Part shown: positions 7,202 through 50,000 of the stretch, piece after piece
How positions within the stretch are numbered: position 1 is the first letter of the stretch
How the letters are laid out: every line of letters starts with the position of its first letter
From: Undibacterium paludis
GTDB lineage: Bacteria > Pseudomonadota > Gammaproteobacteria > Burkholderiales > Burkholderiaceae_D
NCBI RefSeq assembly: GCF_022568815.1
Contig: NZ_JAKZHX010000006.1
Coordinates: forward strand, 1 to 64,000
DNA: 64,000 bases
Direction of reading: 5' to 3'
Notes under the pieces: model-generated
Databases searched by the model: none
What the model saw: the letters and a program-made list of their open reading frames with translations, nothing else
Told to the model about the DNA's origin: nothing
Made by a program: the position numbers and the translations under genes

Positions 7202-7221
7202 GGTAAAATATTCGTACAGGG

Positions 7222-7827: not shown

Positions 7828-9078
<1,251 letters not shown>

Positions 9079-9288: not shown

Positions 9289-9303
9289 TGAAATGGTGCA
9301 AGG

Positions 9304-9332
9304 ATTTTACGTGATGACGTATGAATGGGCAA
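9304..9332 (-). promoter_or_regulatory. Promoter of the riboswitch-glyA transcript
   Basis: On the minus strand TTGCCC (9332-9327) and TAAAAT (9309-9304) are 17 bases apart. The predicted start would lie a few bases before the ZTP aptamer, giving a leader that contains the whole riboswitch. Confidence 0.55.
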
Positions 9333-9522
9333 GTGCAAGCGTCGTGGTAAGTGAAATTATTCTTTCGATAAGTAATATATTCATAGGTACGTGCTTAGCA
9401 AGGGCTAAAAACAGGCCAAATGTCGACTATCAGCAGCGCAATGGCAAAAACACTTAAAATAATGCATCACACAACGTCGTAGCCGCTAGGCATATTGCCT
9501 GCAAATAATTAAGGAAATCAGC

Positions 9523-10275: not shown

Positions 10276-10286
10276 GGTAAGCCCGG

Positions 10287-10685: not shown

Positions 10686-10809
10686 ATATAGGGGTAATGT
10701 GATAATGCGGCAGATCGTATGCTGCCAAGGTGCTGTGATTGCCGTCATGATCACTACGGCCATGCTGATATGCTTCTGGCCTTCGTTTTTGATTTTAAAT
10801 TGATTCAAT

Positions 10810-11505
<696 letters not shown>

Positions 11506-11519
11506 GAAGAACTGACAGC

Positions 11520-11963: not shown

Positions 11964-11973
11964 GCTGGCGCTG

Positions 11974-13833: not shown

Positions 13834-13834
13834 T

Positions 13835-33702: not shown

Positions 33703-34005
33703 ATGAAAAATATCTGGTTTCGCTTTATCACTCCCCTTGTATTGATGGCCTGGTCGGTCAATGCGCAGGCACAAGCCAGCGCTGCCTTGCCACAGCTGAA
33801 GGCGTTGGCAGATTTCCCTGCCGGCATTGCATTGAATGTGGGCAATGACGCACAGCGCGGCGGCATCCGTCTCTGGGGTTTGCAAGACAGTGAGTCATGG
33901 CTGGCTAACGGGAAAACCCCGTCTGACGGGCCTCTGCTGTTTGATGAAAACATGCAGGCCAAGCCGGTATTCTGGGGCGTGGTACAAGGTTTGCGGGGCA
34001 TTTGA
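33703..34005 (+). pseudogene. Vestigial secreted GH10 xylanase with the catalytic domain deleted in frame
   Basis: 100-residue open frame. Residues 1-23 are a signal peptide (AQA cleavage). Residues 28-47 ([20 protein letters not shown]) look like the start of a GH10 domain. Residues 54-93 ([13 protein letters not shown]...[14 protein letters not shown]) match the last strand and C-terminus of GH10 endo-1,4-beta-xylanases. About 250 residues of barrel, including both catalytic Glu, would be missing. The frame is intact, so it may be a recent in-frame deletion or a reused small secreted protein. The match is from memory of family motifs. Confidence 0.6.
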
Positions 34006-34201
34006 ATACATGGTTAAAGCGCACCTGATTGATGAAATGCAGAGGTTTTTTTCATAAAAGTATTAATATTTGATCCCTTTTTGAATAGAAGCCTTTACCC
34101 AGTCATTAATTATTCTTTTTACCGGTGCGCTTGTTTATCATGTCATTCATGCTTTGTTCTGTTGAGCAAAGTTCAGGCAAGTATTAAAGATGGAGAAATG
34201 A

Positions 34202-35200
34202 TTGTTCAAACGCAATATCAGAATTATCGGTAGCGGCATGGCCTTGCCAGCGCAAGAAACCAGTGCAGAAGACCTGGATAAAAAACTGGGTCTGCCAAGC
34301 GGCAGCTCATTCAAAAAAACCGGCGTGCGCAGACGTTTTCTGTCGGTCAATGAGACCGCAGCACAACTGGCTGCACGCGCCTGCACAGCTGCTCTCGCTG
34401 ACGCCGGTTTGCAATGGGGGGACATTGATTGTCTGGTGGCGACATCAGGCACTATGGACCAGGCCCTGCCATATAACGCTGCATTGATCCATGCAGAACT
34501 GAAACTGACCAGGCAACGCACCACGACCATGGACATCGGCGCCAGTTGCCTGTCCTTTTTGGCTGGCCTCGATACCATGAGTTATCTGGTTGAATGCGGA
34601 CGCTATAAAAACGTGATGCTGGTATCGTCTGATCTGGCCACCTTTGGCGTGGATTGGAGTCGCCTGAGTGACTGCGGCATCTTCGGTGATGGTGCCGCAG
34701 CAGTGGTGATACGGCGCTCCCTGGATACTGAATCGTCATGCATTCTGTCTTCACGCAGCATTACCTTGTCGGCAGGGGTGGATCATTGCCAGATACCGGC
34801 GGGTGGTTCACGTTTTCATCCACGCCGGCTGAAGACACCGATAGAACCCTTGTCCATTTTCCAGATGGAAGGCAAGTCTGCCTTCAAACTGATTGCTTCG
34901 GAAATGGAGGCATTCATCGATCATCTGCTCGAGCAGGCGCAGTTGAGCCTGAAGCAGATCGTCAAGGTCGTGCCACATCAGGCCAGCCAACTGGCGATCA
35001 ATCACCTGAGCAAGCGTCTCGGCGTCCATAGTGAACGCATCATCGACATTTTTAAAGACTATGGCAATCAGGTTGGCGCATCCATGCCGACCGCCCTGCA
35101 TCTGTGCCGCAGTGGTGCGCATGTGCAGCGGGGCGACGCCATGCTGCTGGTTGGCTCAGGCGCGGGTCTGACCATGGGTGGCATGGTGCTGGTGTATTGA
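34202..35200 (+). CDS. 3-oxoacyl-ACP synthase III (FabH/OleA-like) of an uncharacterised cluster
   Basis: 332-residue thiolase-fold condensing enzyme. The catalytic triad is visible: Cys116 in DIGASCLSF, His259 in PHQA, and Asn289 in GNQVGAS. It would condense an acyl-CoA or acyl-ACP with malonyl-ACP, or two acyl groups as OleA does. The start is TTG 34202, with GGAG six bases upstream at 34192-34195. It is the first gene of a seven-gene run; its last base is the first base of the next ATG. It is not the housekeeping fabH, as no fatty-acid genes flank it. Confidence 0.85.
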   Translation: MFKRNIRIIGSGMALPAQETSAEDLDKKLGLPSGSSFKKTGVRRRFLSVNETAAQLAARACTAALADAGLQWGDIDCLVATSGTMDQALPYNAALIHAELKLTRQRTTTMDIGASCLSFLAGLDTMSYLVECGRYKNVMLVSSDLATFGVDWSRLSDCGIFGDGAAAVVIRRSLDTESSCILSSRSITLSAGVDHCQIPAGGSRFHPRRLKTPIEPLSIFQMEGKSAFKLIASEMEAFIDHLLEQAQLSLKQIVKVVPHQASQLAINHLSKRLGVHSERIIDIFKDYGNQVGASMPTALHLCRSGAHVQRGDAMLLVGSGAGLTMGGMVLVY

Positions 35201-36219
35201 TGAAAATCTTAATTACCGGCGGTACCGGTTTTTTAGGACGTCACCTGGTCTGGCATCTGGCCGGGCAGGGGCATGAGGTGATTTTTACCGGCCGTCAGCA
35301 GGTGCTTGCGCAAAGCATCATTGGCAAGATAAAGACGGGGTCCGGTGATGCAGAATTCGTCGCCATGGAACATGGCGGGCTGCAGGCACAAGCCATACTG
35401 TGCCGTGCAGCAGAGGGTGCCGACGCCATCATCCACAGTGCCGCACTGACCTCGCCCTGGGGTGCTGCTGATTTGTTTGAACGTGCCAATATTGCTTCAA
35501 CCAGAGAAGTACTGGCAGCAGCACAGGTCAATCGGGTAAATACACTGGTGCATATTTCATCTCCCAGTGTTTACTTCGACTTTAAAGATCAATTGGACAT
35601 ACCTGAAGCCCAGCCTTTACCTGACGGCGTTAATGCCTATGCACGCAGCAAGCGGGTGGCTGAACAACTGGTGCAGGCGGCAAACCTGCCACATCGCGTC
35701 ATCCTGCGGCCACGTGCCATCTTTGGCCCCTGGGACAATGCCTTGCTGCCCCGTTTGCTACGTTTGATACAGTATGGTCGCGTGCCCTTGATGCGCCAGG
35801 GGCAGGCCTTGCTTGACATGACCTATGTCGAGAATGTCGTGCAGGCCGTCATGCTGTCACTGGCGCTGTCGCCAGCGCCAGCGCCGACAGCGCAGGTATT
35901 CAATATTTCCAATGGCGAACCCCTCGCTGTTGCAGCATTGTTTGACAGGCTGGCGCAGGAATTTGGCATGACGATAAAAACCGTGCAGCGGCCTTATTGG
36001 CTGGCTGACCTGATGGCGCGTGGGCTGGAAACTCTGGCACAGGCAAGACCAGGCTGGGAGCCGCCGTTCACGCGCTATTCACTTGCCACGATCGCCTATT
36101 CGCAAACCCTGGATTTGCGCCGTGCCCGTCAGGTTCTAGGTTATCAGCCTGCTGTGAGCCTCGCGGACGGCATCCGCCGTACCGCGCAGTGGAGGAAGAC
36201 GGAAGGGCGGCTCACATGA
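35200..36219 (+). CDS. NAD-dependent epimerase/dehydratase (extended SDR, 3beta-HSD/OleD-like)
   Basis: 339-residue extended SDR. GGTGFLG near residues 7-13 binds NAD(P). The Ser in ISSPSVY and the Tyr-x3-Lys of YARSK are catalytic. RPRAIFGPWD and VENVVQA follow the 3beta-hydroxysteroid-dehydrogenase and OleD pattern. It probably reduces a beta-keto product of the KAS III enzyme. TGATG joins it to the upstream gene, and ATGA at 36216 to the downstream one. Confidence 0.8.
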   Translation: MKILITGGTGFLGRHLVWHLAGQGHEVIFTGRQQVLAQSIIGKIKTGSGDAEFVAMEHGGLQAQAILCRAAEGADAIIHSAALTSPWGAADLFERANIASTREVLAAAQVNRVNTLVHISSPSVYFDFKDQLDIPEAQPLPDGVNAYARSKRVAEQLVQAANLPHRVILRPRAIFGPWDNALLPRLLRLIQYGRVPLMRQGQALLDMTYVENVVQAVMLSLALSPAPAPTAQVFNISNGEPLAVAALFDRLAQEFGMTIKTVQRPYWLADLMARGLETLAQARPGWEPPFTRYSLATIAYSQTLDLRRARQVLGYQPAVSLADGIRRTAQWRKTEGRLT

Positions 36220-37067
36220 GGTTGCAAGCATTACCGTTTGAACTGCTCAAGGTTGGTCATTGCACCCATCCAGAATGTGTGGCCACCCGGGGCGGTCGCT
36301 GGCAAAGCGTCATGTTCCCCGCATTGTGTGGCCTGATACTGCATCCGACCCGTGGATATATCCTGTTTGACACTGGCTATAGCCAGCATTTCATGACAGC
36401 GACGCAGCCTTTTCCCGAGCGGCTGTACCGCTGGACCACACCTGTCAATCTGCCGCATGAAGAACAATTGCTGACGCAACTGGCTGCGCGTGGCATACGG
36501 CCCGCTGATATCAGCCATATCGTCATCTCACACATGCATGCCGACCATATCGCTGGCTTGAGGGACTTTCCCAAGGCGCGCTTCATCGTCTCGCGCGCCG
36601 AGTATGATCAGGCGCGTCGCATGTCGCGCCTGGGTGGTTTGCTGCATGCTTTCTTGCCTCCCCTGCTGCCCGATGATATGGCAGACAGGCTTGATTTTGT
36701 TGAAGATGCACCCATGCGCAAATTGCCGCCCGAGCTGTCCATGTTTGATAGTGGTTTTGACCTGTTCAATGATGGCAGCATATTAGCCCTGCCTTTGCCA
36801 GGCCATAGCAGGGGGCAGATGGGTGTTGTATTCAAGCGTGCTGACCATAGACTGGTATTCATGGCAGCCGATGCCTGCTGGTCGCGTCAGGCTCTCGTAG
36901 AAAATAAATTGCCGACAGTCTTTGCCAACCGCATTTTTGACCATGTCGGCAATTATCGTCGCAGTTTTACTTTGTTGCGCGAAGCTGCAGCGCATCCCGA
37001 ACCTGCATTGATCCTGCCTTCGCACTGCGAGCAAAGCTGGAAAGAATTATCGAATGATATCAAATGA
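36216..37067 (+). CDS. Metallo-beta-lactamase fold hydrolase
   Basis: 283-residue hydrolase. The zinc motif HMHADH is His106, His108, Asp110 and His111, with LPLPGHSRGQMG giving a further His ligand. VLFDTGYS is the N-terminal strand. The overall pattern resembles AHL lactonases and thioester hydrolases. In this cluster it could release an acyl product or open a lactone; that is inference. It overlaps both neighbours by ATGA. Confidence 0.85.
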   Translation: MRLQALPFELLKVGHCTHPECVATRGGRWQSVMFPALCGLILHPTRGYILFDTGYSQHFMTATQPFPERLYRWTTPVNLPHEEQLLTQLAARGIRPADISHIVISHMHADHIAGLRDFPKARFIVSRAEYDQARRMSRLGGLLHAFLPPLLPDDMADRLDFVEDAPMRKLPPELSMFDSGFDLFNDGSILALPLPGHSRGQMGVVFKRADHRLVFMAADACWSRQALVENKLPTVFANRIFDHVGNYRRSFTLLREAAAHPEPALILPSHCEQSWKELSNDIK

Positions 37068-38470
37068 AATTTAGTGAACTCGCCCGCCTGGGCTACCACT
37101 TTGCTCGTACGCGCTGGCTATTGAGCGGCCGTGCAGGTTTCAGGACGCGGGCGCAATTGCAAGCCTGGCAGGCCAAAAAAATTGCCAGCTTCCTCAAACA
37201 CGAACTGCCGCGCACGGCATATTACCAGCAGCACGTGGGCAAAAGTCTTGCGCAATTGCCGCTGATGGACAAGACTGTCACCCTGGAAAATTTTGCGCAA
37301 CTGAACAGCGCAGGCATCAGCCTCGCAACAGCGACTGAAGCCGCATTGCGCAGCGAAGCCAGCCGTGACTTCAAACCCGACCTGCATGGCTACACGGTCG
37401 GCCTGTCCAGCGGTACCATGGGGCCACGCGGTGTATTTTTGACCTCACCAGCAGAAAGCGCCACCTGGGCCGGGATCATCATGGCCCGCACCTTGCCGTC
37501 AGACATGCTGAGAGATTTGCTGACCGGGCGCAAACAAGTCAAGATAGGTTTTTTCCTGCGTGCCAACAGCAGCCTGTATACGACACTGGGCAGCAAGCGC
37601 ATAGATTTCACTTTCTATGACCTGTTCCAGGGTGTTGATGCGCATCTGGCCGCACTGGAAAAACAGGCGCCCGATATCCTGGTGGCGCCTGCCCATGTAC
37701 TGAGCCAGCTGGCGCAACTCAAGCTCACAGGCATGCTGCATATTGCACCACGCAAGGTGATCTCTGTTGCCGAGGTGCTGGAAGTTGACGACAAGGCGCG
37801 CATTGCCGCAGCCTTTGGCGGCATCGTCCATCAACTGTATCAATGTACAGAAGGCTTCCTGGGCTATACCTGTGAGCATGGCGTCATGCACCTCAATGAA
37901 GAATTTGTTCATATAGAGCCAGAATGGCTGGATGAAGAGCATAGCCGCTTTGTGCCTGTGGTTACCGACTTTACCCGCACGACGCAAAAAATCATCCGCT
38001 ACCGTCTCAATGATGTCTTGCGCGTGCGTGATACACCTTGCCCATGTGGTCGCGTCAGTCTGGCACTGGCTGCGGTGGAGGGGCGTTGTGACGATATTTT
38101 ATGGCTACCCAAAAAGAGCACGACAGAACTGGTTGCCATTTATCCCGACATGTTGCGCCATGCGATCACCATCTTCCGCAAGGCTTTGCCTGATTACCGT
38201 ATAGAGCAGCATGGCACCAGCCTGCATATTGCCGTCAATGATGTACAGCCGCAGACCAGGCAAGACATGTATGCTGCCATTGCAGCTTTGGCTGAACGCC
38301 TGGGTTTGCAGGCGCCAGACTTTGTGCATATGCCCTTTGTCAGGGAAGACGCAACAAAAAAACGGCGCCGCATCATGTGTGTAACGCGCCCCTGCCTGGT
38401 GGCATTGCCGAAGTTGCCTGTGCAGGCTGAGCAGGATGGTAAAAGAAATGAGGAACTGAGCCTTGCCTAA
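37064..38470 (+). CDS. F390-synthetase/PaaK-like adenylate-forming ligase
   Basis: 468-residue member of the coenzyme F390 synthetase/phenylacetyl-CoA ligase group. LSSGTMGPRGVFLTSP near residues 110-125 is a diverged P-loop. YQCTEGFLGYTCEHG near 260-275 is the adenylate-binding region. A CPCG motif near residue 325 is typical of the F390-synthetase group. It probably activates a carboxylic acid as AMP ester or CoA thioester. ATGA couples it to the MBL gene, and its stop is overlapped by the ATP-grasp start. Confidence 0.8.
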   Translation: MKFSELARLGYHFARTRWLLSGRAGFRTRAQLQAWQAKKIASFLKHELPRTAYYQQHVGKSLAQLPLMDKTVTLENFAQLNSAGISLATATEAALRSEASRDFKPDLHGYTVGLSSGTMGPRGVFLTSPAESATWAGIIMARTLPSDMLRDLLTGRKQVKIGFFLRANSSLYTTLGSKRIDFTFYDLFQGVDAHLAALEKQAPDILVAPAHVLSQLAQLKLTGMLHIAPRKVISVAEVLEVDDKARIAAAFGGIVHQLYQCTEGFLGYTCEHGVMHLNEEFVHIEPEWLDEEHSRFVPVVTDFTRTTQKIIRYRLNDVLRVRDTPCPCGRVSLALAAVEGRCDDILWLPKKSTTELVAIYPDMLRHAITIFRKALPDYRIEQHGTSLHIAVNDVQPQTRQDMYAAIAALAERLGLQAPDFVHMPFVREDATKKRRRIMCVTRPCLVALPKLPVQAEQDGKRNEELSLA

Positions 38471-39632
38471 TGTACTGATACTTGGCGGCAGAGCGCCAGT
38501 GGCGCTTGATCATGCGCGGCGCTTTCATCACCAGGGCTGGCAAACATATATTGCAGACAGCGTACCATGCCGCCTGTCTGGCTGGTCACCGGCGGTGACT
38601 GCGACAATAAGCCTGAAAGCCGCCAGTGCCAACCCGCAGGCGTTTATTGCTGACCTCAACCAGGCTATCACCCGCTATCAGATCGATTTGCTGATGCCGA
38701 CTTGCGAAGAGGTATTCTACCTCTCGCGTTACCGGCACAAGCTGCCTGCTCACGTCAGAGTACTTGTCGATGATTTTGACAAACTGCGACAATTGCATAG
38801 CAAATGGCAGTTCCTGACCCTGGCGCAAAACGCTGGTGCCAATCCGCCTGCCAGCAAGCTGGTCTACAGCATTGCCGAAGCCAGAGAGTGGGCGCACGGC
38901 AAGGCAGTGGTGCTCAAGCCGGAATACTCACGCTTTGGCGTGCACGTACGTCTGCTGCCAGAAGGTATCGGTGACAAAGAGCCTGAACTGGCCGCCATGG
39001 GTAACTGGGTAGCGCAGGAGCTGCGTTCAGGCCGTGAACTCTGCTCTTACAGCGTTGCTGACCAGGGCCGTTTGCTGGCCCATGCGGTCTACCAGCCGCT
39101 GCACAGGCTGGGCAAGAGCGCCAGTTATTACTTTTCACCCTGTGACGAGCCACAGATACGCCAGGCAGTCAAAAAACTGGTGGCGGACCTGCAATTTACC
39201 GGGCAAATTTCTTTCGACTGGATAGTGGGTGCTGACGGTATCCCACATGTCATAGAGTGTAATCCGCGCGCCATCAGCGGCGTACACCTGTTCGCGCTGG
39301 ACGATGCCTTGCCTGCGGCACTGTCAGGCACCCATGATGTTGCAAGCAAAGGACATGTGACACCTTCACAAGCCAGGCCTGCCATGCTGGCAGCCGTCAT
39401 GCTCACAGCCGGTTTTGTGAGCGCCTTGCGCCAGGGATCAGTCCGCCAATGGTGGGCTGATTTCAATACGGCCCACGATGCCATGTGGACAGGGCGCAGC
39501 CTGCTGCCCATGCTGGGCGGTGTTGTTGATATGGGTTCGTTCGCCCTGATGGCCTTGCAAAAACAATGTTCCATGCGCGAAGCAGCAACCCGCGATATAG
39601 AATGGGATGGTCACCCATTGCCAGAGCCATAG
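38463..39632 (+). CDS. ATP-grasp domain ligase
   Basis: 389-residue ATP-grasp protein, carbamoyl-phosphate-synthase/biotin-carboxylase-like in fold. It has a Rossmann start (NVLILGGRAP), a VVLKPEYSRFG segment near residue 150 with the ATP lysine, and FDWIVGADGIPHVIECNPRA near 256-275 with Glu and Asn metal ligands. The start is TTG 38463 with a GAGGAA upstream, overlapping the ligase gene by eight bases. It probably joins a carboxylate to an amine or other nucleophile in the pathway. Confidence 0.8.
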   Translation: MPNVLILGGRAPVALDHARRFHHQGWQTYIADSVPCRLSGWSPAVTATISLKAASANPQAFIADLNQAITRYQIDLLMPTCEEVFYLSRYRHKLPAHVRVLVDDFDKLRQLHSKWQFLTLAQNAGANPPASKLVYSIAEAREWAHGKAVVLKPEYSRFGVHVRLLPEGIGDKEPELAAMGNWVAQELRSGRELCSYSVADQGRLLAHAVYQPLHRLGKSASYYFSPCDEPQIRQAVKKLVADLQFTGQISFDWIVGADGIPHVIECNPRAISGVHLFALDDALPAALSGTHDVASKGHVTPSQARPAMLAAVMLTAGFVSALRQGSVRQWWADFNTAHDAMWTGRSLLPMLGGVVDMGSFALMALQKQCSMREAATRDIEWDGHPLPEP

Positions 39633-39641
39633 ATACGCGTC

Positions 39642-40763
39642 ATGCCCAATTCTGCGGAAAAAAATGTCGTTGCTCATACTGATGCCGATGGTGCGTGCCA
39701 GGCACTCTATCGCATCCACCATTCGGCAGAGCAGGGCGCATTGATACGCAATCTGCAAACCCGGTTGACGCTCTTGCAGGCGGATGAGCTTGCATTACCC
39801 GTCACCACCAATGACGGTGAGGCCGACAACGCCTGGGTATGTTCGCCACTGACGACCTACTGGCAATACGCCAAAGAAGAATTGCAGCGCTATCAGCATT
39901 TACTGTGGTACCGGCCCCTGCTTGCCATCATCGATATCTATGGGCGCTGTCTGCGTGCGGCAGACATCGACAAAACCGTTATCATCAATAACTGGATGCT
40001 GAGCACCAATCTTTATCCCAGGTTAGACGCGGCTGCACTGACCGACGTGGTAGATCAGGCCAGGTGTATATGGCCGCAGCATGCCATCTGGTTCCGCTCC
40101 CTCAACCGTGAACAGCATGCAGACTGGCTCGATGCCTTGCAGGCAATAGGCTTTCAGCTTATCCCCAGCCGTCAGGTGTATCTGTACGAAGATATAGAGG
40201 CCTGCAAGCAGCATCAATGCATGCGTCGTGACCTGCACCTGCTTACGCACACCAAGCTCCAACGCGTTGCCGATCATGAGATTGCTGACGCTGACTACGC
40301 GAGTATTGCATCTTTGTACCAGCAACTGTACACCGATAAATATTCACGCCTTAACCCTCAGTACACGGCTGCTTTCATGCGTGCCTGGCACCGGGCTGGC
40401 CTGTTGCATTTCATCGGTTTTAAAGATGGGGCAGGGCAAATGCTGGCTGTTGTCGGCATATATCAGCAGGGCAATACGGTCACGGCACCCATCGTCGGTT
40501 ATGATACGTCGCTCCCAAAAAAACTGGGCCTGTACCGCCTGCTCATGGCCGCCGTGTTTGACTATGGCAGACAACATGGCAAGACCATCAATCTTAGCGC
40601 CGGTGCTGCCCACTTCAAGCGGCTGCGCGGCGGCAGCCCGGCAATAGAATACAGCGCTGTATTGGCAAGACATATGCCACGCAAGACGCGCATCGTCATC
40701 AAGCTGTTAAGCTGGCTGACTACACGCCTGGGTATCCCTGTCATGAAGCGTTACAAATTATGA
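39642..40763 (+). CDS. GNAT-fold acyltransferase-like protein
   Basis: 373-residue protein. The C-terminal half has a GNAT/FemAB-like pattern, with DGAGQMLAVVGIY and GLYRLLMAAVFDYGRQHG, ending with a KRLRGGSPAIEYSAV segment. The N-terminal part is unassigned. It would transfer an acyl or aminoacyl group. Nine bases separate it from the ATP-grasp gene, and an ATGA overlap joins it to the Rieske gene. Confidence 0.65.
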   Translation: MPNSAEKNVVAHTDADGACQALYRIHHSAEQGALIRNLQTRLTLLQADELALPVTTNDGEADNAWVCSPLTTYWQYAKEELQRYQHLLWYRPLLAIIDIYGRCLRAADIDKTVIINNWMLSTNLYPRLDAAALTDVVDQARCIWPQHAIWFRSLNREQHADWLDALQAIGFQLIPSRQVYLYEDIEACKQHQCMRRDLHLLTHTKLQRVADHEIADADYASIASLYQQLYTDKYSRLNPQYTAAFMRAWHRAGLLHFIGFKDGAGQMLAVVGIYQQGNTVTAPIVGYDTSLPKKLGLYRLLMAAVFDYGRQHGKTINLSAGAAHFKRLRGGSPAIEYSAVLARHMPRKTRIVIKLLSWLTTRLGIPVMKRYKL

Positions 40764-41779
40764 GCAAATACTGGAACCCGCAAGTCCGCAAACATTGGCT
40801 GGTTGTCGCCCGCAGCGAATGCGTCAGTCACAAGCCACTGGCCGTCACCATCATGGACAAGCCCATGGTGCTGGTGCGCCTGCCAGGCCAGCAGATACTG
40901 GCACTGGAAGACCGCTGCCCGCATCGCCAGGCACCCTTGTCGCAGGGCCGCATGACAAGCGAGGGCCTGCAATGCCCTTATCATGGCTGGACCTTTGGTG
41001 AGCAGGGCCGCTGCACCAGTGTGCCGGGCCTGCCGGCAGATCAATGCCTGCCCGCTGTTGCTGCCAGATACTATGCCGTGCAAGAACTAGACGGCCTGGT
41101 CTGGGTACGCCTTGCTGCCAGTGGTGACCTTGCACCACCAGCCCTGATTGCTGACCTGCCGGCCGGTTCGCGCAAATTCATGTGGCAGGCAAAGTGGCAA
41201 GCCGATATTGTCAACGCAATGGAAAATTTTCTGGACCCTTTGCATACCCACCTGGTCCACCCTGGCCTGGTACGGCGTGACAATCGCCGCAGCCGCATGC
41301 AAGCCAGCCTGACAAAGACCGCAGAGGGTTTCACCGTTGATTACCAGGGCCAGCCAGAACAGTCCGGCCTGCTGTATCGCCTGTTTGAGTCACCACGCTT
41401 GTCTGAGCGCGTCTATTTCGCACAGCCCGGTACCGCACAAATTGAGTACCGTTACCAGAACGGCAGCATCGTGCGCATCACCCTGCATTTCACGCCGGAA
41501 GGCGCCAGCACCACCCACGTCTTTGCCACCTTGCATGTAGAAAACCGCTGGGCGCCCGCCTGGCTATTGCGTGCAACGGTCTGGCCTTTCCTCAAGCGTG
41601 TGGCTCAGCAAGACGCCCGCATGCTGGCGTTACAAGAACAGAATTTGCAAAAATTCCCAGGCTCGCATCCGGTATCGACGTCGCTGGACCTGGTCAGACC
41701 TTATCTGGAACAGGTATGGCGGGAAGACAAAACTGACGTAGAATTACCTTTGATTAAAACAATCGCACTTGATTTATGA
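40760..41779 (+). CDS. Rieske non-haem iron oxygenase
   Basis: 339-residue oxygenase alpha-subunit type. The Rieske 2Fe-2S ligands are Cys53, His55, Cys72 and His75 (CPH and CPYHG). The mononuclear iron site is in MENFLDPLHTHLVH: Asn156, Asp159, His162 and His167. It hydroxylates or desaturates a substrate; reductase and ferredoxin partners are not in the cluster and must come from elsewhere. It is the last of seven coupled genes. Confidence 0.85.
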   Translation: MSKYWNPQVRKHWLVVARSECVSHKPLAVTIMDKPMVLVRLPGQQILALEDRCPHRQAPLSQGRMTSEGLQCPYHGWTFGEQGRCTSVPGLPADQCLPAVAARYYAVQELDGLVWVRLAASGDLAPPALIADLPAGSRKFMWQAKWQADIVNAMENFLDPLHTHLVHPGLVRRDNRRSRMQASLTKTAEGFTVDYQGQPEQSGLLYRLFESPRLSERVYFAQPGTAQIEYRYQNGSIVRITLHFTPEGASTTHVFATLHVENRWAPAWLLRATVWPFLKRVAQQDARMLALQEQNLQKFPGSHPVSTSLDLVRPYLEQVWREDKTDVELPLIKTIALDL

Positions 41780-41835
41780 TTGCCTGCACAGGTGTCAGTA
41801 AGTCAGACAGTGACAGCAAAAAGGTAAACAATAAA

Positions 41836-42192
41836 ATGAATGCAATCAATGTTATAGCCCCCTACAAATACCTCGACATGTGGGTGTTTGATGACGAGCG
41901 TGTGGGGCTGGTGCAGGAACCCTTTGTCAGCGGTGCTGACACCATGATTGACAAGGTTGTCGCCCATATCTCCAATGCAGAACAGGGTTTTGTGATGCTG
42001 TTTTCTGCCACGCCTTTTCCTGGTCATGACATCAAGCTTGAATGGCGTCGCCCAGACGGTGGTGGCAACTGGTATTTTTCAGAAGCACTGGACATGGAAG
42101 GCTGGCTATGCCCGGCCCTGTTCAAATACTTCAGCGCAGCGCCGCAAGAAATCTATGTACAGATCAAGGCAAAAAAATCAGACGCTGCCTGA
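41836..42192 (+). CDS. DUF6717 family protein
   Basis: 118-residue protein. VIAPYKYLDMWVFDDERVGLVQEPFVSGAD and MEGWLCPALFKYF (read with breaks) match DUF6717. ATG 41836 has AAAGGTAAA upstream and begins at the usual family start. An in-frame ATG 41776 overlaps the Rieske stop (ATGA) and may couple it to the cluster. Function unknown; linkage to the pathway is not shown. Confidence 0.7.
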   Translation: MNAINVIAPYKYLDMWVFDDERVGLVQEPFVSGADTMIDKVVAHISNAEQGFVMLFSATPFPGHDIKLEWRRPDGGGNWYFSEALDMEGWLCPALFKYFSAAPQEIYVQIKAKKSDAA

Positions 42193-42209: not shown

Positions 42210-42980
42210 TCAGGCCTCAACAGCTTCTGCCAGCATTTCATCGACGACCCAGGTCTGCAACCAGCCACCAATTTCATCGGCGATGTGTGGATTGTTTTCT
42301 ACCGCTTGTTCACACACGGCAGAAAAAGGCTGCCCCTGTGCCAGCTGCTGCAATGCCGTCGCCTCTGCCGCACTGATGGACCTGAAATGCGCCTGCAATT
42401 GCTTGCGCCATACTATCCAGGTCACTGCCTGCTCGGTGAATTCCGGTGCTGGTGGCGCAGTGTCCTCATTCAGCGCCAGCCACACGGCGACGCTGTTGCT
42501 GTGCATGCTGATGAATTGCAGCGAGCTGCTGGTGCGCAGGCCCACGGTTTCCCAATCGCTGATGTTTGCCAGGTCAGCCAGGCCAAGCAGGCTGTGGTCT
42601 GGCGCATCAAAGGCCGTCCCCAGCGCCCATTCAAACTGCGCCAGTTCAGCCACTTGCGGGTGTTCGGCAAATTGCCGGCGCAATTGTTCGGCGAACTGGT
42701 CGCCAAACCAGCGCAGGTTACGAAAACTGGAGGGGTGTGTATCAATATATGTTGCACACGCCTGATAAAACAAGTCATCACCCAGATACTGATGCGTTTT
42801 GGTATAAGCCTCAGACAGCGCATCACGCAGGCGCAAACGGTAAGCCTGGTAATAGATATCGAGCCGCGCATCACGGCCCAGGCCCGGCGTATCTGCCAGA
42901 TGGCCATGCATGCTGGCAGCTGTGCGCTGGCCTAAAATGAAGTGTTGAAAGTCTGTTTGCAGTGTCTGTGTATGATTCAT
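42210..42980 (-). CDS. bufC: BufC/HvfC-type DUF2063 partner protein
   Basis: 256-residue protein with the DUF2063 DNA-binding-like N-terminal domain: ILGQRTAASMHGHL-like start and RLDIYYQAYRLRLRDALSEAY near residues 40-60. It is the partner of the DUF692 enzyme in bufferin and related RiPP maturation, probably bringing precursor to enzyme. ATG 42980 leaves eleven bases to bufB; the longer frame to 43040 would overlap bufB. Confidence 0.85.
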   Translation of the reverse strand: MNHTQTLQTDFQHFILGQRTAASMHGHLADTPGLGRDARLDIYYQAYRLRLRDALSEAYTKTHQYLGDDLFYQACATYIDTHPSSFRNLRWFGDQFAEQLRRQFAEHPQVAELAQFEWALGTAFDAPDHSLLGLADLANISDWETVGLRTSSSLQFISMHSNSVAVWLALNEDTAPPAPEFTEQAVTWIVWRKQLQAHFRSISAAEATALQQLAQGQPFSAVCEQAVENNPHIADEIGGWLQTWVVDEMLAEAVEA

Positions 42981-42991
42981 GGCGCATACTC

Positions 42992-43846
42992 TCAGGCTGC
43001 TTTGGCAACAGGCAACATCGTGCCACATGCACTGGCGCAAATGGCACGCGCCTTGTCCAGCTCAGCTACCAGCTCTGCCAGCGGCGGTATGTTGTCATCA
43101 CGTTCTATCATGCTGGGCACGGCGCCAAAGCGGCGTATTGCCTGCGCATACAAATCCCACACAGGGTCGGCAACAGCCTGGTCATGGGTGTCAACAATAT
43201 GCGTGCCATGGTCACTATGCCCGGCCAGGTGTATCTGCTGTACGCGATCAAGCGGTATGCCGCGCAGATAATCGAGTGCATCAAAACCGTGATTGATGCT
43301 GCTGACATAGATATTGTTCACATCCAGCAAAATCATGCTGTCTGCCTGTTGGGCAATGGCGGCGACAAATTCCCATTCCGGCATGCTGTCGCTGCTGTAT
43401 TGCAGGTAACTCGATACATTTTCCAGCACCAGCCTTCGGCCCAGCACGTCTTGCACACGGCGTACATTATTGACGACCAGGGCAATGGTTTCTTGGTTAT
43501 AGGGCAGGGGGAACAGGTCATGCATGTTCTTGCCATGCACACCCGTCCAGCAGATATGGTCAGACACCCACATCGGCGACACCCGGTTGATCAACTGCTT
43601 TAAGTCCCGCAGATATTCTGCTGAGGGGCCATCCGGCGAACCTATCGACATCGACACACCATGCATCACCACCGGGTAATCGGCACGTATGGCGTCCAGC
43701 ATGGCCAAAGGCTTGCCGCCCGGCACCATATAGTTCTCAGACAAAATCTCAAACCAGTCCACCACCGGTTTGTCTGCCAGTATCGACAGGTAATGATCGG
43801 TACGCAAACCCAGGCCAAAGCTGGCAGTTGTTAAAGAATTCTGCAT
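42992..43846 (-). CDS. bufB: BufB/MNIO (DUF692) multinuclear iron oxidase
   Basis: 284-residue TIM-barrel enzyme of the MNIO (DUF692) family. The metal-ligand patterns are visible: MHGVSMSIG near residue 61, [14 protein letters not shown] with Glu, [11 protein letters not shown] and [10 protein letters not shown]. In bufferin pathways it converts precursor Cys side chains to thiooxazole groups. It lies between bufA and bufC in the usual order. Confidence 0.9.
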
Positions 43847-43876
43847 GATTTTTAGATTTTGTATGAAAACGGAAAA

Positions 43877-43901
43877 TGCGCCAACATGACCAGTTGGCGC
43901 A
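43877..43901 (-). terminator. Hairpin between bufA and bufB (possible leaky terminator or stabiliser)
   Basis: A perfect nine-base-pair inverted repeat (TGCGCCAAC / GTTGGCGCA) with a seven-base loop lies in the 94-base gap after bufA. On the minus strand it is followed by TTTTCCGTTTTC, a weak U-tract. It could terminate most transcripts after the precursor gene or protect its 3' end, giving more BufA than enzyme. Confidence 0.6.
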
Positions 43902-43940
43902 CTTCATCAATAGACTGAATTAATCCTGAATAGCCGGGGA

Positions 43941-44210
43941 TTACTTGTCCAGATCAATGATCTTGCCGCCTTTGGCCAGGCACTGGCCTGCTGGTGCTGC
44001 TACAAAGCCATGGCCTTTGCATGAATTTTGACCTTTGCAGGCGTTCTCAGCAGTTTTGCATTCACTGGTGCCCTTGCAGCTATTGATGCCAGAGCAATGC
44101 ACTTTGTCACCAGCGCTCACTGTACTTGTACCGGCAATCGCCAGACCAGACAAAGCCATGGCAGCGGCAGCAGCAGCGATCATTGCACCAGTTTGGATAG
44201 ATTTTTTCAT
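43941..44210 (-). CDS. bufA2: BufA2-like periplasmic bufferin precursor
   Basis: 89-residue precursor with a Sec signal peptide (about residues 1-26) and six Cys at 39, 45, 51, 58, 64 and 77 in CSG-x-N-x-CKG and CKGQNSCKGHG units. This matches the bufferin copper-buffering RiPP family of type BufA2. Modification of Cys by BufB-BufC would give a periplasmic copper chelator. ATG 44210 is preferred over the longer frame from 44261. The first gene of bufABC; no bufD (DoxX) is seen. Confidence 0.85.
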   Translation of the reverse strand: MKKSIQTGAMIAAAAAAMALSGLAIAGTSTVSAGDKVHCSGINSCKGTSECKTAENACKGQNSCKGHGFVAAPAGQCLAKGGKIIDLDK

Positions 44211-44601
44211 GATGTATTCTCCGTAGGTTTGAAATAAGTAAAATAAGTAAAAGTGAACCAAGCCCTTTACCTGCCATGCAAACTTGCATCAACAAGCAGA
44301 ACTTATGCATCAGTCGGGCGGATTTCAGATTACTTACACCTGATGGAAAAAATAATTGCAGAAATTTGTGTGAATGCAAAAATGACAATTTATTGTCTAA
44401 TTAAGATTCATCTAATAAGTTCCTGGTGGCAATGTCTTGATCACTTAGGACTTAGGCAAAAGTACCCCAAAGCTTGGACCTTAGCGTACTTTACAATTCG
44501 TCATACCCGCGCAGGCGGGTATCCATGCTTGAACAGCCGAGTCCTGTTTGCTGTCTGCGCTAATGTCGCGTAAGTTCTATTACTGATAGAAAAGCAGTAG
44601 T
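44211..44601. other. bufA upstream region, no gene seen
   Basis: AT-rich sequence between bufA and hsdR, which both read to the left; bufA's promoter must lie in its left part. It contains one copy of a 65-base dispersed repeat. No ORF with family similarity was found. Confidence 0.45.
44495..44559 (-). repeat. Dispersed 65-base repeat with hairpin core, copy 1
   Basis: The reverse complement of this segment aligns end to end with 57242-57306. A 21-base stretch around GGATACCCGCCTGCGCGGGTA is identical, and flanks CGCAGACAGCAA and GACGAATT are also shared. The core ACCCGC / GCGGGT can form a hairpin. Shape is that of REP-like elements often found in intergenic regions of betaproteobacteria. 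Confidence 0.75.
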
Positions 44602-47600
44602 TCAAACCCATTCAGCACTCAGACTTTCCGCCTGTTGTAATACTGTTTGTATCGCTTCTTCCTGCTGATCAGGCGGATACTTGTACTTGCGCAAAATCCG
44701 CTTGACCATCAGCCGCAGCTTGGCCCGCACACTTTCACGCTGTGACCAATCGACGCTGATGTTTTGACGAAGATTTTCAGTCAATTCATGGGCGATCAGC
44801 TTTAGTGTCTCATCACTCAGTTCGCGAACAGCCGATTCGTTATTGGCAAGTGCATCATAAAACCGGATTTCATCGTCAGTCAGGCCGAGTGCTTCATTGC
44901 GGCTGGCAGCCTCCTGGAACTTTTTCGCCATCTGTATCAGCTCTTCGATCACCTGTGCTGTTTCGATGGACCTGTTCTGATAGCGTTTGATGACGTCAGC
45001 CAGCAAGTCAGAGAATTTTTTGTTCTGCACGACATTGCCGCCAAACTTGCTCTTGATTTCACCTTCCAGCAAACGCTCCAGCAGTTCAACAGCCAGATTG
45101 CGTTCTGGCAGATTGCGTACCTCCGCTAAAAATTCATCATCGAGTAAACCGATATTGGGTTTATCCAGGCCGACTGCATCAAAAATATCCACGACTTGAT
45201 CAGAGACGACCGCAGAACCGATGATTTGCCGGATAGCCAGTTCGCGCTCTTCATCTGTTTTCTTCCTGGCGCTAATGTCGCGCTTGGTCAGCAGCACTTT
45301 AACAGCCTGGAAGAAGGCAACTTCTTCCCGCACAGCCTTGGCTTCATCCAGTGTGCAGCAGAGCGAAAATGCCTTGCTCATTGCCAATGCATGATCAGCC
45401 CAACGCTTTTTGCCCTCCTTGTCAGCCAGGACAAAGTTGGCAGCGCCAGCCAGCAGCTTGTGGCCCCCTGTCAGAAAATTGCTGTAGTCAAAACCGTTTA
45501 GCATGGCACGCAACACGTCCAGCTTTTCTTCAAGAACAGCATAGGCTTCGTGGGCATCGACAGTTGGCTTGCCCCGGCCATTGCTGGCGGTGTATTCCTT
45601 CAACGCCTGCTTGAGGTCATTGGCGATGCCGATATAGTCAACAACCAGACCGCCTTGCTTGTCTTTAAATACCCGGTTAACCCTTGCAATAGCCTGCATC
45701 AGATTATGACCCTTCATGGGCTTATCGACATACAGCGTATGCACACAAGGAGCGTCAAAGCCTGTGAGCCACATATCACGCACGATGACAAGACGCAGAG
45801 GGTCAGCCGGATTTTTGAAGCGTTTTTCAAGGTCTTTCTTGACCTGCTTGGAATAGATATGGGGTCGTAACAGCGGCTTGTCGCTGGCAGAACCTGTCAT
45901 CACAATCTTGATCGCACCCTTGGCTGGGTCTTCATCATGCCAGTCAGGGCGCAGCTTGATGATTTCGTTATACAAGTGAACGCAGATGTCGCGGCTCATG
46001 GCCACAACCATCGCTTTGCCGCTCTGTGCTGTAGATCGTTCTTCAAAATGAGCGACCAGATCAGTCGCCACCTGGCGTATGCGTGGTTCAGCACCAACCA
46101 CTTTTTCCAGTGCCGCCCATTTACTCTTCAGCTTGGACTGCTCGTCACCATCTTCATCTTCGGCAAGCTCATCGACTTCTGCATCCAGTTCGTCAAGCCC
46201 CGCTTCTTTTAATCCCAGCTTGGCAAGGCGTGATTCGTAGTAGATGGCAACCGTTGCACCATCTTCCCTGGCTTGCTGCATGTCATAGACATGGATATAG
46301 TCGCCAAACACGGCGCGGGTATCGCGGTCTTCACCAGAAACAGGGGTGCCAGTAAAGGCGACAAAGGTCGCATTGGGCAGTGCATCACGTAGATGCTGGG
46401 CATAGCCTACCTGATAGCCCTTGGCATCGCCCTTGAACTTGGCTTCAAAGCCATATTGGGTGCGGTGGGCTTCATCCGCAATCACCACGATATTGCTACG
46501 ATCAGACAGTACCGGGAAGCTGTCCTCATCCTCACCGGGCATGAACTTTTGAATAGTGGCAAACACGATGCCGCCGGATGGCCGGTTGCCCAGCTTGGCA
46601 CGCAAATCGCCACGGGTTCCTGCCTGCACAGGTTGTTCACGCAGCAGGTCTTGCGCCAGTGAAAACACGCCAAACAACTGTCCGTCCAAATCATTGCGGT
46701 CAGTGATAACAACAATGGTCGGGTTCTCCATCGCAGCTTCCCGCATCACCCGCGCAGCAAAGCAGGTCATGGTGATGCTCTTGCCGCTGCCTTGGGTATG
46801 CCATACCACACCGCCTTTATGACTGCCGCCAGGTCGTGATGCAGACACCACTTGTTCAATAGCAGCACGCACAGCGTGAAACTGATGATAGCCAGCGATT
46901 TTCTTGATCAGCCCACCATCATCTTCAAACAACACGAAGAAGCGCAAATAATCCAACAGGTATGCAGGAGCGAGAACACCACGTATCAGTGTTTCCAGCT
47001 CATTAAACTGCCCTAACGGGTCAATGGTGACGCCATCAATGGTTCGCCATTGCATAAAGCGTTCAGCATCACTAGACAACGAGCCTAAACGTGCTTCGCT
47101 GCCATCCGAGATAACCAGTATCTCGTTGTAATAAAACACATCCGGTATTTGCTCTTTGTAAGTCTGTATCTGGTCGAATGCTTTCCATATGTCGGCGTTT
47201 TCATCGGCGGGATTTTTCAGTTCCAGCAATACCAACGGCAGACCGTTGACGAACAAAATAATGTCCGGGCGGCGCGTGTGCTTGGGGCCTTTCAACGTGT
47301 ATTGATTGACGGCCAGCCATTCATTGGCGGCAACATCAGCAAAATCGACCAGCCGCACAAAGTCACCGCGTGTCTCGCCGTCTTTTTGATATTGGACTGG
47401 CACACCATTGACCAGCAGGCCGTGGAAGTGCCGGTTTGCAGACAGCATTGCCGGTATGCCCAGGTCCGTGATCTGCTTGAGTGCATCTTCACGGGCGACC
47501 AGCGGAATCGTGGGATTCAAACGGCTGATCGCACCGCGAACACGCTCAACAAGTAGTGGTTGCAGATAATTGCTGCGTTCCGGCGATTCACCATCTGGCG

Positions 47601-47682
47601 CAATTGTATAGCCGTTTATGTACTGGTAGCCAACTTCTTGCAACCAGCCCAAGGCTTCGTTTTCTAATTGGTCTTCGGTCAT
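44602..47682 (-). CDS. hsdR: Type I restriction enzyme R subunit
   Basis: 1026-residue motor and nuclease subunit. The PD-(D/E)XK site is Asp140, Glu154 and Lys156 (RRPD...LELK). Walker A is GSGKS near 298-302, the DEAH box is [10 protein letters not shown], and TGTP marks motif III. The C-terminal EcoR124-like helical domain follows. It cuts DNA after translocation, guided by HsdM/HsdS. It is the last gene of the operon, three bases after the SIR2 gene stop. Confidence 0.93.
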
Positions 47683-47685
47683 GAG

Positions 47686-48753
47686 CTAGCTGGAAAAGAG
47701 TTTCAAAAGGAGTGCCTCAATTGCATCGTTATGATTACCTGCTGGATACCAGATCGGAAAAATATTGCATGCAGCAAGTTCACGTTGGCGCCTAACTCTT
47801 GCGACTTGATCAGGTTCCCCTCTTTCGTCCACTGGCATTGACAGGAAGGCATAATGTGCTGGAACGTTGTGGTGTCCGAGTTTTTTTGCAAATGCCTGCA
47901 TCTCGGTAAGAGTGCGATCTACTGAAAGACTACAACCAATAAACAGCAGAGTCGTTTGGGCACAAATAGCGTCAATCGAACTTGCAACTCCACCCGATTC
48001 TCCATAATGTTGGACATACTCAGATTTGGTAAGCACCCTACCTTTTGGTGAGCTAGCCTTCCCGTGAGCAAGTAGTAGGAACCTTTCTCGTTTTCCAAGC
48101 TGAACCCGAATATCATCCGCGTCATAGCCAATGATTTTTTCGGTAAATGCAAAGTTTGCTTCTTTGTAGGCACGCTCTACGACAGAATCGAAATTCGTCG
48201 TTATGACATTTTTTTTGAATATGTATGGCAGCATGCGTACCGGCCCAGAGAGCTGCCTCTCACTACCAAAGGCATTGTTAAAAACTTCATGAAAACCTTC
48301 GTTGAGATTGTCGCACAGCGCTTGTGCTGCCTCTTCATAAAGACCTGAGGAAAGCATTCTTTCGAATTCAGCCTCATCAAGAAGCGTTTGCTTTCGTTGC
48401 TGCCTTAAGAAATTTGTCCAACCTGGATATCCACAAGGAATAGACATGCCAGCCCCTACAAAAGGGACAACACTTCCCTTTTTAAACATCTCGCTTAATT
48501 TCAAGAAGCGCTCTTCGAGTTCATATTCTCGCAAAAAATCTTCAGCAGATTCACATTTCAACGCTAAACGATCTTCGAACCAAGAATCAAAAACTTCCTC
48601 AAGGATGGGGTTACTACCATCTGTCAATTCCGCTAGTTCAAGAATTTCCTTAGGTGTCCAAGTCCGATGTCTAATTGCAACTTGCCCATTCTCAACACGA
48701 AGATTCTCATTACCAGACAAATCATCAAAAAACTCGTCATAGAGAAATTTCAT
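47686..48753 (-). CDS. SIR2-like NADase-domain protein inside the type I R-M operon
   Basis: 355-residue protein. A helical N-terminal part (1-90) leads to a SIR2-like fold: GAGMS at 100-104, TTNFD at 185-189 with Asn187, and HG at 230-231, the residues that bind and cleave NAD in defence SIR2 proteins (as in ThsA, DSR and SIR2-HerA families). LLFIGCSLSVDRT near 269-281 is the second NAD-site region. There is no deacetylase-type zinc cluster. It overlaps hsdS by ATGA and lies three bases before hsdR, so it is co-translated with the restriction system. More AT-rich than the flanking hsd genes by eye. Confidence 0.8.
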   Translation of the reverse strand: MKFLYDEFFDDLSGNENLRVENGQVAIRHRTWTPKEILELAELTDGSNPILEEVFDSWFEDRLALKCESAEDFLREYELEERFLKLSEMFKKGSVVPFVGAGMSIPCGYPGWTNFLRQQRKQTLLDEAEFERMLSSGLYEEAAQALCDNLNEGFHEVFNNAFGSERQLSGPVRMLPYIFKKNVITTNFDSVVERAYKEANFAFTEKIIGYDADDIRVQLGKRERFLLLAHGKASSPKGRVLTKSEYVQHYGESGGVASSIDAICAQTTLLFIGCSLSVDRTLTEMQAFAKKLGHHNVPAHYAFLSMPVDERGEPDQVARVRRQRELAACNIFPIWYPAGNHNDAIEALLLKLFSS

Positions 48754-50000
48754 GACGCATTCTCCGGCAAATGCAATTTTCCAGAAATAAGGCGTGGCAA
48801 TAACGTATTGCGCAAGGAGGCAATGTGTTCGGCTCGCTCACTTTGAGCATGAATCTGTTCGTAGAGTGGCGATACTACCGCCTCGAATTTGGTTAGAATT
48901 TCTATCGGTGGAATAATTCCAAGTTCAGCACCTAAGTCTCGCTGAGTAAGAAGTGGTTGAGTCGAACCTCGATTTAACGTGCTTACATCAATTGACCGTG
49001 TCCAATGTAAGCAGAATGTGAATGCCGCAGGCTCTAATGGGGTCAGCACAAGCACATTATCCGAAGCCCAGAATGGAGGGTAAGCGATATGCACTTTTCC
49101 AAGTGTACCAACCCGTCCCGTGACAATTCGTGGCTCATCAAACAATGATGTGGATGTATAGCCAATAGGTCCCGCACCGCCGTACAATGGAACGCTGAAT
49201 GTTTCTGTTAATTTATCACTTCTGTCGGATGGCCTCTTTCCACTTGAAATCGAACAGATATCAGCTAACTTTCCAACTCGCCAAGTCTTCGGCACCATTC
49301 CAAATTGAGACTCGTCAAAACCATCAGGGAACAGTGCTGCGGTTGCTTCGTCCATGCCTTCCGGCATTTGGCCTTGCTGCTTGGCACGGACTGGATCGAA
49401 ATCTACGAACCATGACTTGAACAGGGCTTGGGCGATGGCTTCGAGCGTGGCATTGGTTTCACGTAGGAGGGTGATGCGATCGTCAAGCAGACTCAACATA
49501 CTGGCGATAGAACGTTGTTTGTCAAGCGGGGGAATGACTACGGGAGTTTTCCGCAAGATACCTAAATTCGTGTGTGGTACGCCAGTTTGAATTGCCGAAT
49601 TAAAAATGTACTTGAGTTGCTCTTCGGTCTTGAAAAGGTAGTAAATGAAATTCACATCTGCCTTTTGCGGGTCCAACGTGATTTTCATTTGGCTTTGGGA
49701 GACTATATATTCTGTATACGGTGTCTTTGGAACTATGGAAACCTGTCCTAATGTGCCGCGTTGGGTAAATACTAAGTCACCCGGCCTTGCCTTGTTCTGT
49801 GCAAGACTTTCGGCCTTTTCCGGGGACACAAATACAAAATCACCTTGTACCCACTTTTCGCCCATATTCTGACCGCGAATTACCGGTATCCCAAATTCAG
49901 CATAATCTTTGGAAACAAGGTTGGAGCCGAACGGTCCGCCGGCAATCGCGTTCTTTATCGGTGCAGCAAGGGCTTCAAGATTTCGGGTTTCAAAACTCAT
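48750..50000 (-). CDS. hsdS: Type I restriction enzyme specificity subunit
   Basis: 416-residue DNA-recognition subunit with two target-recognition domains, roughly 5-150 and 205-350. They are separated by a central conserved helix with LDDRITLLRETNATLEAIAQALFKSWFVDFDP (read with breaks) near 165-195. The C-terminal RNTLLPRLISGKL is the second conserved spacer. ATG 50000 follows GGAGGG by seven bases, better than the upstream TTG 50006. It overlaps hsdM by eleven bases. Recognition sequence not predictable. Confidence 0.9.
   Translation of the reverse strand: MSFETRNLEALAAPIKNAIAGGPFGSNLVSKDYAEFGIPVIRGQNMGEKWVQGDFVFVSPEKAESLAQNKARPGDLVFTQRGTLGQVSIVPKTPYTEYIVSQSQMKITLDPQKADVNFIYYLFKTEEQLKYIFNSAIQTGVPHTNLGILRKTPVVIPPLDKQRSIASMLSLLDDRITLLRETNATLEAIAQALFKSWFVDFDPVRAKQQGQMPEGMDEATAALFPDGFDESQFGMVPKTWRVGKLADICSISSGKRPSDRSDKLTETFSVPLYGGAGPIGYTSTSLFDEPRIVTGRVGTLGKVHIAYPPFWASDNVLVLTPLEPAAFTFCLHWTRSIDVSTLNRGSTQPLLTQRDLGAELGIIPPIEILTKFEAVVSPLYEQIHAQSERAEHIASLRNTLLPRLISGKLHLPENAS

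Follow-up and report, generated by a model that had tools for sequence, protein, structure and literature searches.

What do seven closely spaced genes of the bacterium Undibacterium paludis make, and do all seven belong to one pathway? The genes lie co-directionally on one strand at positions 34202-41779 of a 64,000-nucleotide stretch of contig NZ_JAKZHX010000006.1, the whole of which we call the window, and encode in order a β-ketoacyl synthase III (KAS III, or KAS), a short-chain dehydrogenase/reductase (SDR), a metallo-β-lactamase (MBL)-fold hydrolase, a ligase related to F390 synthetase (F390 ligase), an ATP-grasp ligase, a GNAT-fold transferase and a Rieske oxygenase. The original prediction had named these families from the sequence and had taken them for a coherent seven-gene biosynthetic set with a partial resemblance to the olefin/β-lactone (ole) pathway. 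Family assignments with Pfam (E 0.001) and with NCBIfam models and their curated cut-offs agree with the seven names, and the coherence of the enzyme set is upheld. We observed, however, that the unit is a four-gene core joined to one of several exchangeable modules, rather than a fixed seven-gene pathway. The window cluster is one version of a widespread pathway, still without an assigned product, whose core probably makes a lipid that receives different head groups in different bacteria.

Distribution of the core and of the seven-gene set

A profile built from four F390 proteins served to collect related loci, and we compared the best 80 of 86, ranked by F390 similarity; they come from named genomes and metagenome-assembled genomes (MAGs), related genomes included. 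A family was called present when tblastn (1e-6) matched it within 7 kb of the F390 gene. Three loci (L093, L094 and L095) duplicate L014, L016 and L034, another with stops inside its F390 gene (L096) was excluded from the counts, and L120 is the same contig as L018. By these measures F390 ligase is present in 80 loci, MBL in 78, SDR in 75, KAS in 72, ATP-grasp in 47, GNAT in 31 and Rieske in 16. KAS, SDR, MBL and F390 ligase occur together in 71/80 loci, in Proteobacteria, Firmicutes, Actinobacteria, Acidobacteria, Chloroflexi and other phyla, and all seven families in 15/80. The latter are from Undibacterium, a Burkholderiaceae MAG, Pseudoduganella, Duganella, Paraburkholderia, Pseudomonas, two Shewanella, Pseudoalteromonas, two gammaproteobacterial MAGs, a Jidaibacter MAG, Arcobacter, a Rhodospirillaceae bacterium and Paenibacillus chitinolyticus. 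Plasmids supplied five more seven-family loci (Paraburkholderia, Roseateles, Shinella and two Rhizobium); there were 25 plasmid records with F390, and 8 among 15 listed were inspected, further records being reached through a GNAT search. The ATP-grasp gene is inverted in four of the five plasmid loci, the Rieske match of L121 is split in two pieces, and 26 of the 80 loci, mainly those of Paenibacillus-type Firmicutes and Bdellovibrio, have the ATP-grasp gene placed between KAS and SDR. Since the set recurs in distant phyla, partly reordered, we consider its recurrence to be more than chance. Confinement of the seven genes to one species had been named as grounds for rejecting the original prediction, and the set extends far beyond one species; what did not stand is the fixed seven-gene pathway as the unit.

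Occurrence of the last three genes is nested. ATP-grasp is present in 31/31 GNAT loci (Fisher 1.2e-10; such p-values are optimistic since the loci are related) and GNAT in 15/16 Rieske loci, the corresponding figures within the 59 untruncated loci being 27/27 and 13/14. This nesting suggests an order that starts with the core and continues with ATP-grasp, GNAT and then Rieske. Distance matrices of the seven genes, for which 15 of 16 genomes were kept (L065 was left out for internal stops or off-length sequences), correlate at 0.71-0.92; the value for F390 versus GNAT is 0.87, and 1,000 permutations gave at most 0.45. The sole Rieske locus lacking GNAT, L023, looks degenerate.

Within the genus the cluster is found in 4/43 genomes, the window's own included, one of which (G003) has the form KAS-MBL-F390-SDR; within the class, 2/274 genomes, again with the window's own counted, exceed the TIGR02304 cut-off that identifies the F390 ligase. 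Contig C56 of a 6.5 Mb genome begins with the window. In G019, which holds the nearest copy within the genus, the genes that flank the window's cluster are found on one contig, C48, with about 17 kb between them, and the cluster copy is on C70; therefore the cluster occupies different sites within the genus.

Exchangeable modules

The modules seen beside the core are ATP-grasp, with or without GNAT and then Rieske; DUF3419/BtaA with GNAT; GT21 with GT28; and PAP2 with a fatty-acid hydroxylase and a desaturase. DUF3419 is the Pfam family matched by Rhodobacter BtaA, and one report tested whether it predicts betaine-lipid synthesis in algae (PMC6642084). We observed DUF3419 followed by GNAT in four Rhizobium and Shinella loci, with no ATP-grasp match within the 15-kb stretch; for one of these the depositors annotate the DUF3419 gene and list the GNAT product as hypothetical. 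All 12 plasmid GNAT records were examined: ATP-grasp adjoins in 8 and DUF3419 in 4, and the core is present in 10/12, the stretch examined in two Deinococcus plasmids having ATP-grasp and GNAT without the core. A GNAT profile search in 145 sampled genomes of the family gave matches in 9 genomes at 10 places, eight of them without the core, and a DUF3419 gene is the neighbour in 7 of these eight. In all but one of the places seen, GNAT has as its partner an enzyme with the potential to add an amino-acid group.

The window's own genome contains a second GNAT copy on contig C4 (L112:9803-12150), which is 30% identical, has no Pfam hit and adjoins a DUF3419/BtaA-family gene; the same pairing is found in 6 further genomes of the family. 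The two genes may together modify a lipid head group.

GT21 and a second, GT28-type glycosyltransferase accompany the core in 10/80 loci (GT21 102.9 bits, cut-off 21.7), a count that excludes L087 with its weak GT21 match and no GT28. All nine loci arranged as KAS-MBL-F390-SDR have them, and all nine lack ATP-grasp. Between the two glycosyltransferases of L034, at 13442-14080, is encoded a 212-aa protein that has relatives in L027, L030 and L037 and no Pfam or NCBIfam match. The PAP2, FA_hydroxylase and FA_desaturase module was found in Escherichia coli, Burkholderia stagnalis, Herbaspirillum autotrophicum (divergent) and a gammaproteobacterial MAG, L024, where positions 6652-17363 carry all seven genes and then the three module genes in one run. 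Elsewhere a PAP2 gene (L020) or a DUF3419 gene (L084) adjoins the core, and in Ketogulonicigenium and Paracoccus a TetR regulator and a sulfotransferase do so. Taken together, the tails of other taxa favour a lipid that bears a head group over a β-lactone or a small diffusible amide, both of which are less likely. The open reading frame (ORF) preceding the L024 run is of the same family as an ArsR-like ORF ahead of the core in L020.

The E. coli operon of core, PAP2, hydroxylase and desaturase genes was found in 672 of 5,426 complete genomes (671 cover at least 80% of the query), a collection that need not mirror the population, so that the ratio is not a population frequency; two of the places lie on plasmids. 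In strain CFT073 this seven-gene operon (L127:3001-9882; HGG68_RS07615 to HGG68_RS07645) lies between narI and the tRNA-Tyr genes ahead of purU. At the narI site of K-12 MG1655 there is no operon, and narI, ychS, rttR and tRNA genes are found instead. The E. coli F390 member scores 755.5 bits against TIGR02304.

Families and active sites of the core enzymes

The four core genes of the window, all on the plus strand, are KAS III (34202..35200, Pfam), which has a TTG start with GGAG at 34192-34195; an epimerase-type SDR (35200..36219, Pfam); an MBL-fold hydrolase (36216..37067, Pfam Lactamase_B); and the F390-synthetase-related, PaaK-like adenylate-forming ligase (37064..38470, TIGR02304). Conservation was read from alignments that include the window's own sequence (KAS 71, SDR 73, MBL 78, F390 78, ATP-grasp 46, GNAT 32 and Rieske 17) and from which sequences with internal stops, or off-length as extracted, had been dropped. 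The KAS triad C116/H259/N289 is kept in 71/71, SDR Y147/K151 in 73/73, the seven metal-ligand positions of MBL in 78/78 and K433 of the F390 ligase in 77/78. The catalytic residues that had been noted as intact in the KAS, SDR, MBL and Rieske genes of the window are thus conserved in nearly all relatives as well.

The closest curated model to the window KAS is PRK07204 (359.1 bits, below the cut-off of 402), and the closest solved structures are MxnB (191.7 bits) and CorB (190.4 bits), of the myxopyronin and corallopyronin systems, versus 154.4 for the best FabH. The portion of the MxnB paper available describes binding and condensation of two long chains (PMC5724707), which, as far as that text goes, come from type I polyketide synthases (PKS); unlike those systems, the window operon contains no PKS domain (Pfam) other than KAS III. 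We constructed a tree of the 71 cluster KAS, MxnB, CorB, two FabH and two KAS III of the window's genome, rooted on L109 by choice. The cluster KAS together with MxnB and CorB split from three FabH (support 0.856), and MxnB and CorB nest among members from Acidobacteria, Ktedonobacterales and Armatimonadota (support 0.72, within a range of 0.72-0.78 for the nesting). Also, the Q of a QA[LV]P motif is found in 70/71 cluster KAS and in MxnB and CorB, and not in the two FabH aligned. By these comparisons of sequence, the kinship with MxnB and CorB appears moderate (support 0.72-0.86).

The same closeness would be expected if the cluster made a small secreted signal or antibiotic of the α-pyrone or alkylquinolone kind, with KAS III, an MBL thioesterase, ligase and oxygenase acting as in the MxnB/CorB or pqs systems, and we take the enzyme classes to parallel those of pqs. 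Such a product is very improbable, however: the tails are membrane-lipid modules, the operon has no PKS domain besides KAS III, and the MBL enzyme matches N-acyl-homoserine lactone (AHL) lactonases, with no PqsE entry among the matches listed at E 0.001.

Is the cluster, then, an ole pathway? The residue before P90 of the cluster KAS is I in 45, L in 19, M in 6 and V in 1, and is Glu in 0/71. The available text of two reports places a glutamate in the OleA and PpyS ketosynthases (PMC4578411) and describes as an OleA feature a catalytic Glu preceding a conserved Pro, with two exceptions among the OleA sequences aligned there (PMC7064751). A hydrophobic residue in its place is also seen in MxnB, CorB and the two aligned FabH. 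The best curated match of the SDR is the OleD 2-alkyl-3-oxoalkanoate reductase (NF042422, 199.9 bits, cut-off 580). The ligase exceeds the TIGR02304 cut-off (415.7 bits vs 251.9), has no Pfam match at E 0.001 and is PaaK-like in profile comparison. The MBL enzyme is AHL-lactonase-like yet far under the cut-offs for AttM (93.7 of 390) and AiiA (60.1 of 375).

From these unrelated parts a β-lactone of the ole or lipstatin type could still be assembled: KAS would condense two chains, SDR would reduce the product, the PaaK-like ligase would close a β-lactone as OleC does, the MBL enzyme would open the lactone or protect against it, and ATP-grasp and GNAT would add an amino acid as in lipstatin. 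The Ole pathway and the lipstatin lst operon likewise bring together a condensing enzyme, an OleD-like reductase and an adenylate-forming enzyme in an equal logical order, the MBL enzyme is lactonase-like, and a single nonribosomal peptide synthetase (NRPS) module adjoining the core in L044 recalls lipstatin, whose gene functions we partly assume. We nevertheless rate a β-lactone product as improbable. The OleA glutamate is missing from every KAS aligned, the ligase gave no OleC match, MBL stands where an OleB-type α/β hydrolase would be expected and no such hydrolase is among the seven genes, and PAP2, hydroxylase, desaturase and DUF3419 modules are a poor fit to a reactive β-lactone. Membership in the Ole pathway itself is ruled out by the missing glutamate and the different ligase. 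The ole resemblance of the original prediction thus stood for the logic of the steps and not for the enzymes: the cluster is ole-like in function only, and is not an ole cluster.

The module enzymes of the window

The window's module consists of an ATP-grasp ligase (38463..39632, plus strand, Pfam ATP-grasp_3), a GNAT-fold transferase (39642..40763, plus strand; Acetyltransf_6, PF13480, as sole Pfam match) and a Rieske mononuclear-iron oxygenase (40760..41779, plus strand, Pfam Rieske and a C-terminal VanA_C). The predicted ATP-grasp model (pLDDT 92.9) is nearest in fold, by E-value, to PylC and L-amino-acid ligase; its nearest curated model is PRK06849, below whose cut-off the window protein lies. 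For GNAT (model pLDDT 90.7), Foldseek matches include the aminoacyl-tRNA-dependent transferases MprF/LPGS, FemX and streptothricin synthases, with E about 1e-8 to 1e-5 and query TM 0.42-0.53 for the FemX/MprF-class entries; other GNAT proteins also match, and no meaningful sequence relatives were found in the PDB. The Rieske residues D159/H162/H167/D285 are kept in 17/17 and C53/H55 in 16/17, and the best solved match is NdmA.

Amino-acid head groups on lipids without phosphorus are also the mark of the aminolipids (OlsBA, GlsB) and the betaine lipids (BtaA/DUF3419), and DUF3419 replaces ATP-grasp in four loci. This likeness raises the possibility of a one-chain aminolipid or N-acyl amino acid, in which KAS III would start or extend a chain with malonyl units, SDR would yield a 3-hydroxyacyl group, MBL and ligase would release and re-activate the chain, ATP-grasp would link an amino acid and GNAT would add a second acyl group. 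One review describes the known aminolipids as amides between an amino acid and a 3-hydroxyacyl chain, carrying a further acyl group, and has acyl-histidine made by an ATP-grasp enzyme in Legionella (PMC11631085). In our comparison the FA_hydroxylase of L024 and that of E. coli came nearest to the ornithine-lipid hydroxylase OlsE, though far under its cut-off (75.3 and 66.6 of 475). We consider a one-chain product unlikely, in that 3-hydroxyacyl-ACP (ACP, acyl carrier protein) comes from normal fatty-acid synthesis, which would make a dedicated KAS and SDR redundant; the KAS III core would assemble a chain rather than build on glycerol or 3-hydroxyacyl-ACP. Also, no OlsB-type N-acyltransferase (Pfam 13444) is among the pathway genes or the other ORFs scanned, a search that did not cover the rest of the genome, and GNAT matches PF13480 only.

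Proposed pathway

We favour, tentatively and at a little less than an even chance, a modular lipid pathway in which the core builds a hydroxylated, probably two-chain lipid platform and the tail module installs a head group. In the first step KAS III would join two acyl thioesters, as its moderate kinship with MxnB and CorB suggests, and the OleD-like SDR, judged by its family, would reduce the resulting β-ketone to a hydroxyl. The MBL enzyme may hydrolyse a thioester or lactone and the PaaK-like ligase may adenylate the freed acid and close or transfer it as an ester or amide, in an order that is uncertain. In the window's tail, ATP-grasp would couple an amino acid, as its fold and its exchange with DUF3419/BtaA suggest; the GNAT-fold enzyme would then work on the amino-acid group as an N-acyl- or aminoacyl-transferase; and a hydroxylation by the Rieske oxygenase would come last. 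A lipid alcohol is favoured as the core product because most tail enzymes modify a hydroxyl or a lipid.

Several observations weigh against this lipid pathway. The C-H-N triad and the missing glutamate of KAS are common to ordinary FabH, and KAS could be a chain-starter that uses malonyl-ACP. The window KAS, SDR and ATP-grasp all score under curated cut-offs. PurK and biotin carboxylases, too, match the ATP-grasp fold, some of them at a similar or higher TM. The GNAT matches are at the level of fold (query TM about 0.3-0.5); a Staphylococcus protein of unknown function heads the list, which also includes ordinary acetyltransferases. If the amide were formed on the amine of the amino acid itself, no α-amine would remain for GNAT, so that ATP-grasp would have to couple the carboxyl, or GNAT use another amine. 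Among the loci, the GNAT of L115 has neither an ATP-grasp nor a DUF3419 partner, several Neisseria, Legionella and actinobacterial loci have the core without a recognised module, and plasmid pBASL58 (L124) has its core genes dispersed among others. Finally, the NRPS module by the core in L044 and an FkbH-ACP protein in L020 would fit a soluble natural product equally.

Organization of the gene run and its surroundings

All six junctions are tight, as had been claimed. KAS and SDR overlap by 1 base (TGATG at 35200), SDR and MBL by 4, MBL and F390 by 4, F390 and ATP-grasp by 8, and GNAT and Rieske by 4; a 9-base gap between ATP-grasp and GNAT is the single non-overlapping junction. These figures assume the start codons with which neighbouring genes fit most tightly; for SDR (35104) and MBL (36189) the longest ORFs start earlier; KAS III and ATP-grasp have TTG starts. 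Promoter-like sites (9 vs 6.8 expected by chance) and terminator-like sites (7 vs 10.4) are not clearly above chance. The single transcript of the original prediction is therefore retained on the basis of gene spacing and conservation, and not of such signals.

No regulator or transporter lies within the seven-gene run, in agreement with the original prediction. A single-motif scan gave no credible small ACP inside the cluster, which also has no reductase partner for the Rieske oxygenase. We rejected an anti-phage defence role, the seven proteins having no PADLOC match at 1e-6, and a phage origin, the three proteins tried (F390, ATP-grasp and GNAT) having no PHROGs match at 0.01. The original prediction had overlooked an eighth ORF (41776..42192, plus strand; Pfam DUF6717), with a 4-base overlap between its ATG and the Rieske stop. 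It gave no tblastn match (1e-6) in 84 related loci and was dropped as a pathway gene for this lack of conservation with the cluster; it is probably a passenger.

Upstream of the operon, at 33703-34005, a 100-aa ORF with a signal-peptide-like start contains the C-terminal end of a GH10 xylanase (PF00331 positions 266-310) and looks like a gene remnant. Downstream, on the minus strand, the ORFs at 42210-44261 resemble what we take to be a DUF2063/DUF692/DUF2282 metal-related (bufferin-like) group, and the large ORFs at 44602-51543 presumably belong to a type I restriction-modification system (HsdR-like, 1026 aa).

Significance

The original prediction had matched the cluster to no known pathway and had named a homologous cluster with an assigned metabolite as its other ground for rejection; no assigned product was found among the matches listed in open-access text, where the E. 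coli locus was not searched for; the two mentions of F390 looked at were a ladderane gene-cluster comparison and a COG list. Genes of a Brevibacillus cluster exceed the cut-offs of PRK07204 (KAS) and PRK06849 (ATP-grasp), models that, like TIGR02304, bear names without a specific function. In its boldest form, which we regard as possible but doubtful, the lipid pathway would define a new membrane-lipid class: a non-glycerol two-chain alcohol, made by C-C condensation, serving as a platform like diacylglycerol or ceramide for amino-acid, homoserine, sugar, phospho and sulfo head groups. If true, a shared pathway would have been found for TIGR02304, PRK07204 and PRK06849, three models for which we found no tested function, and a lipid class would have escaped notice in genera ranging from Undibacterium to Paenibacillus and in many E. 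coli (~12% of complete genomes), including the well-studied strain CFT073.

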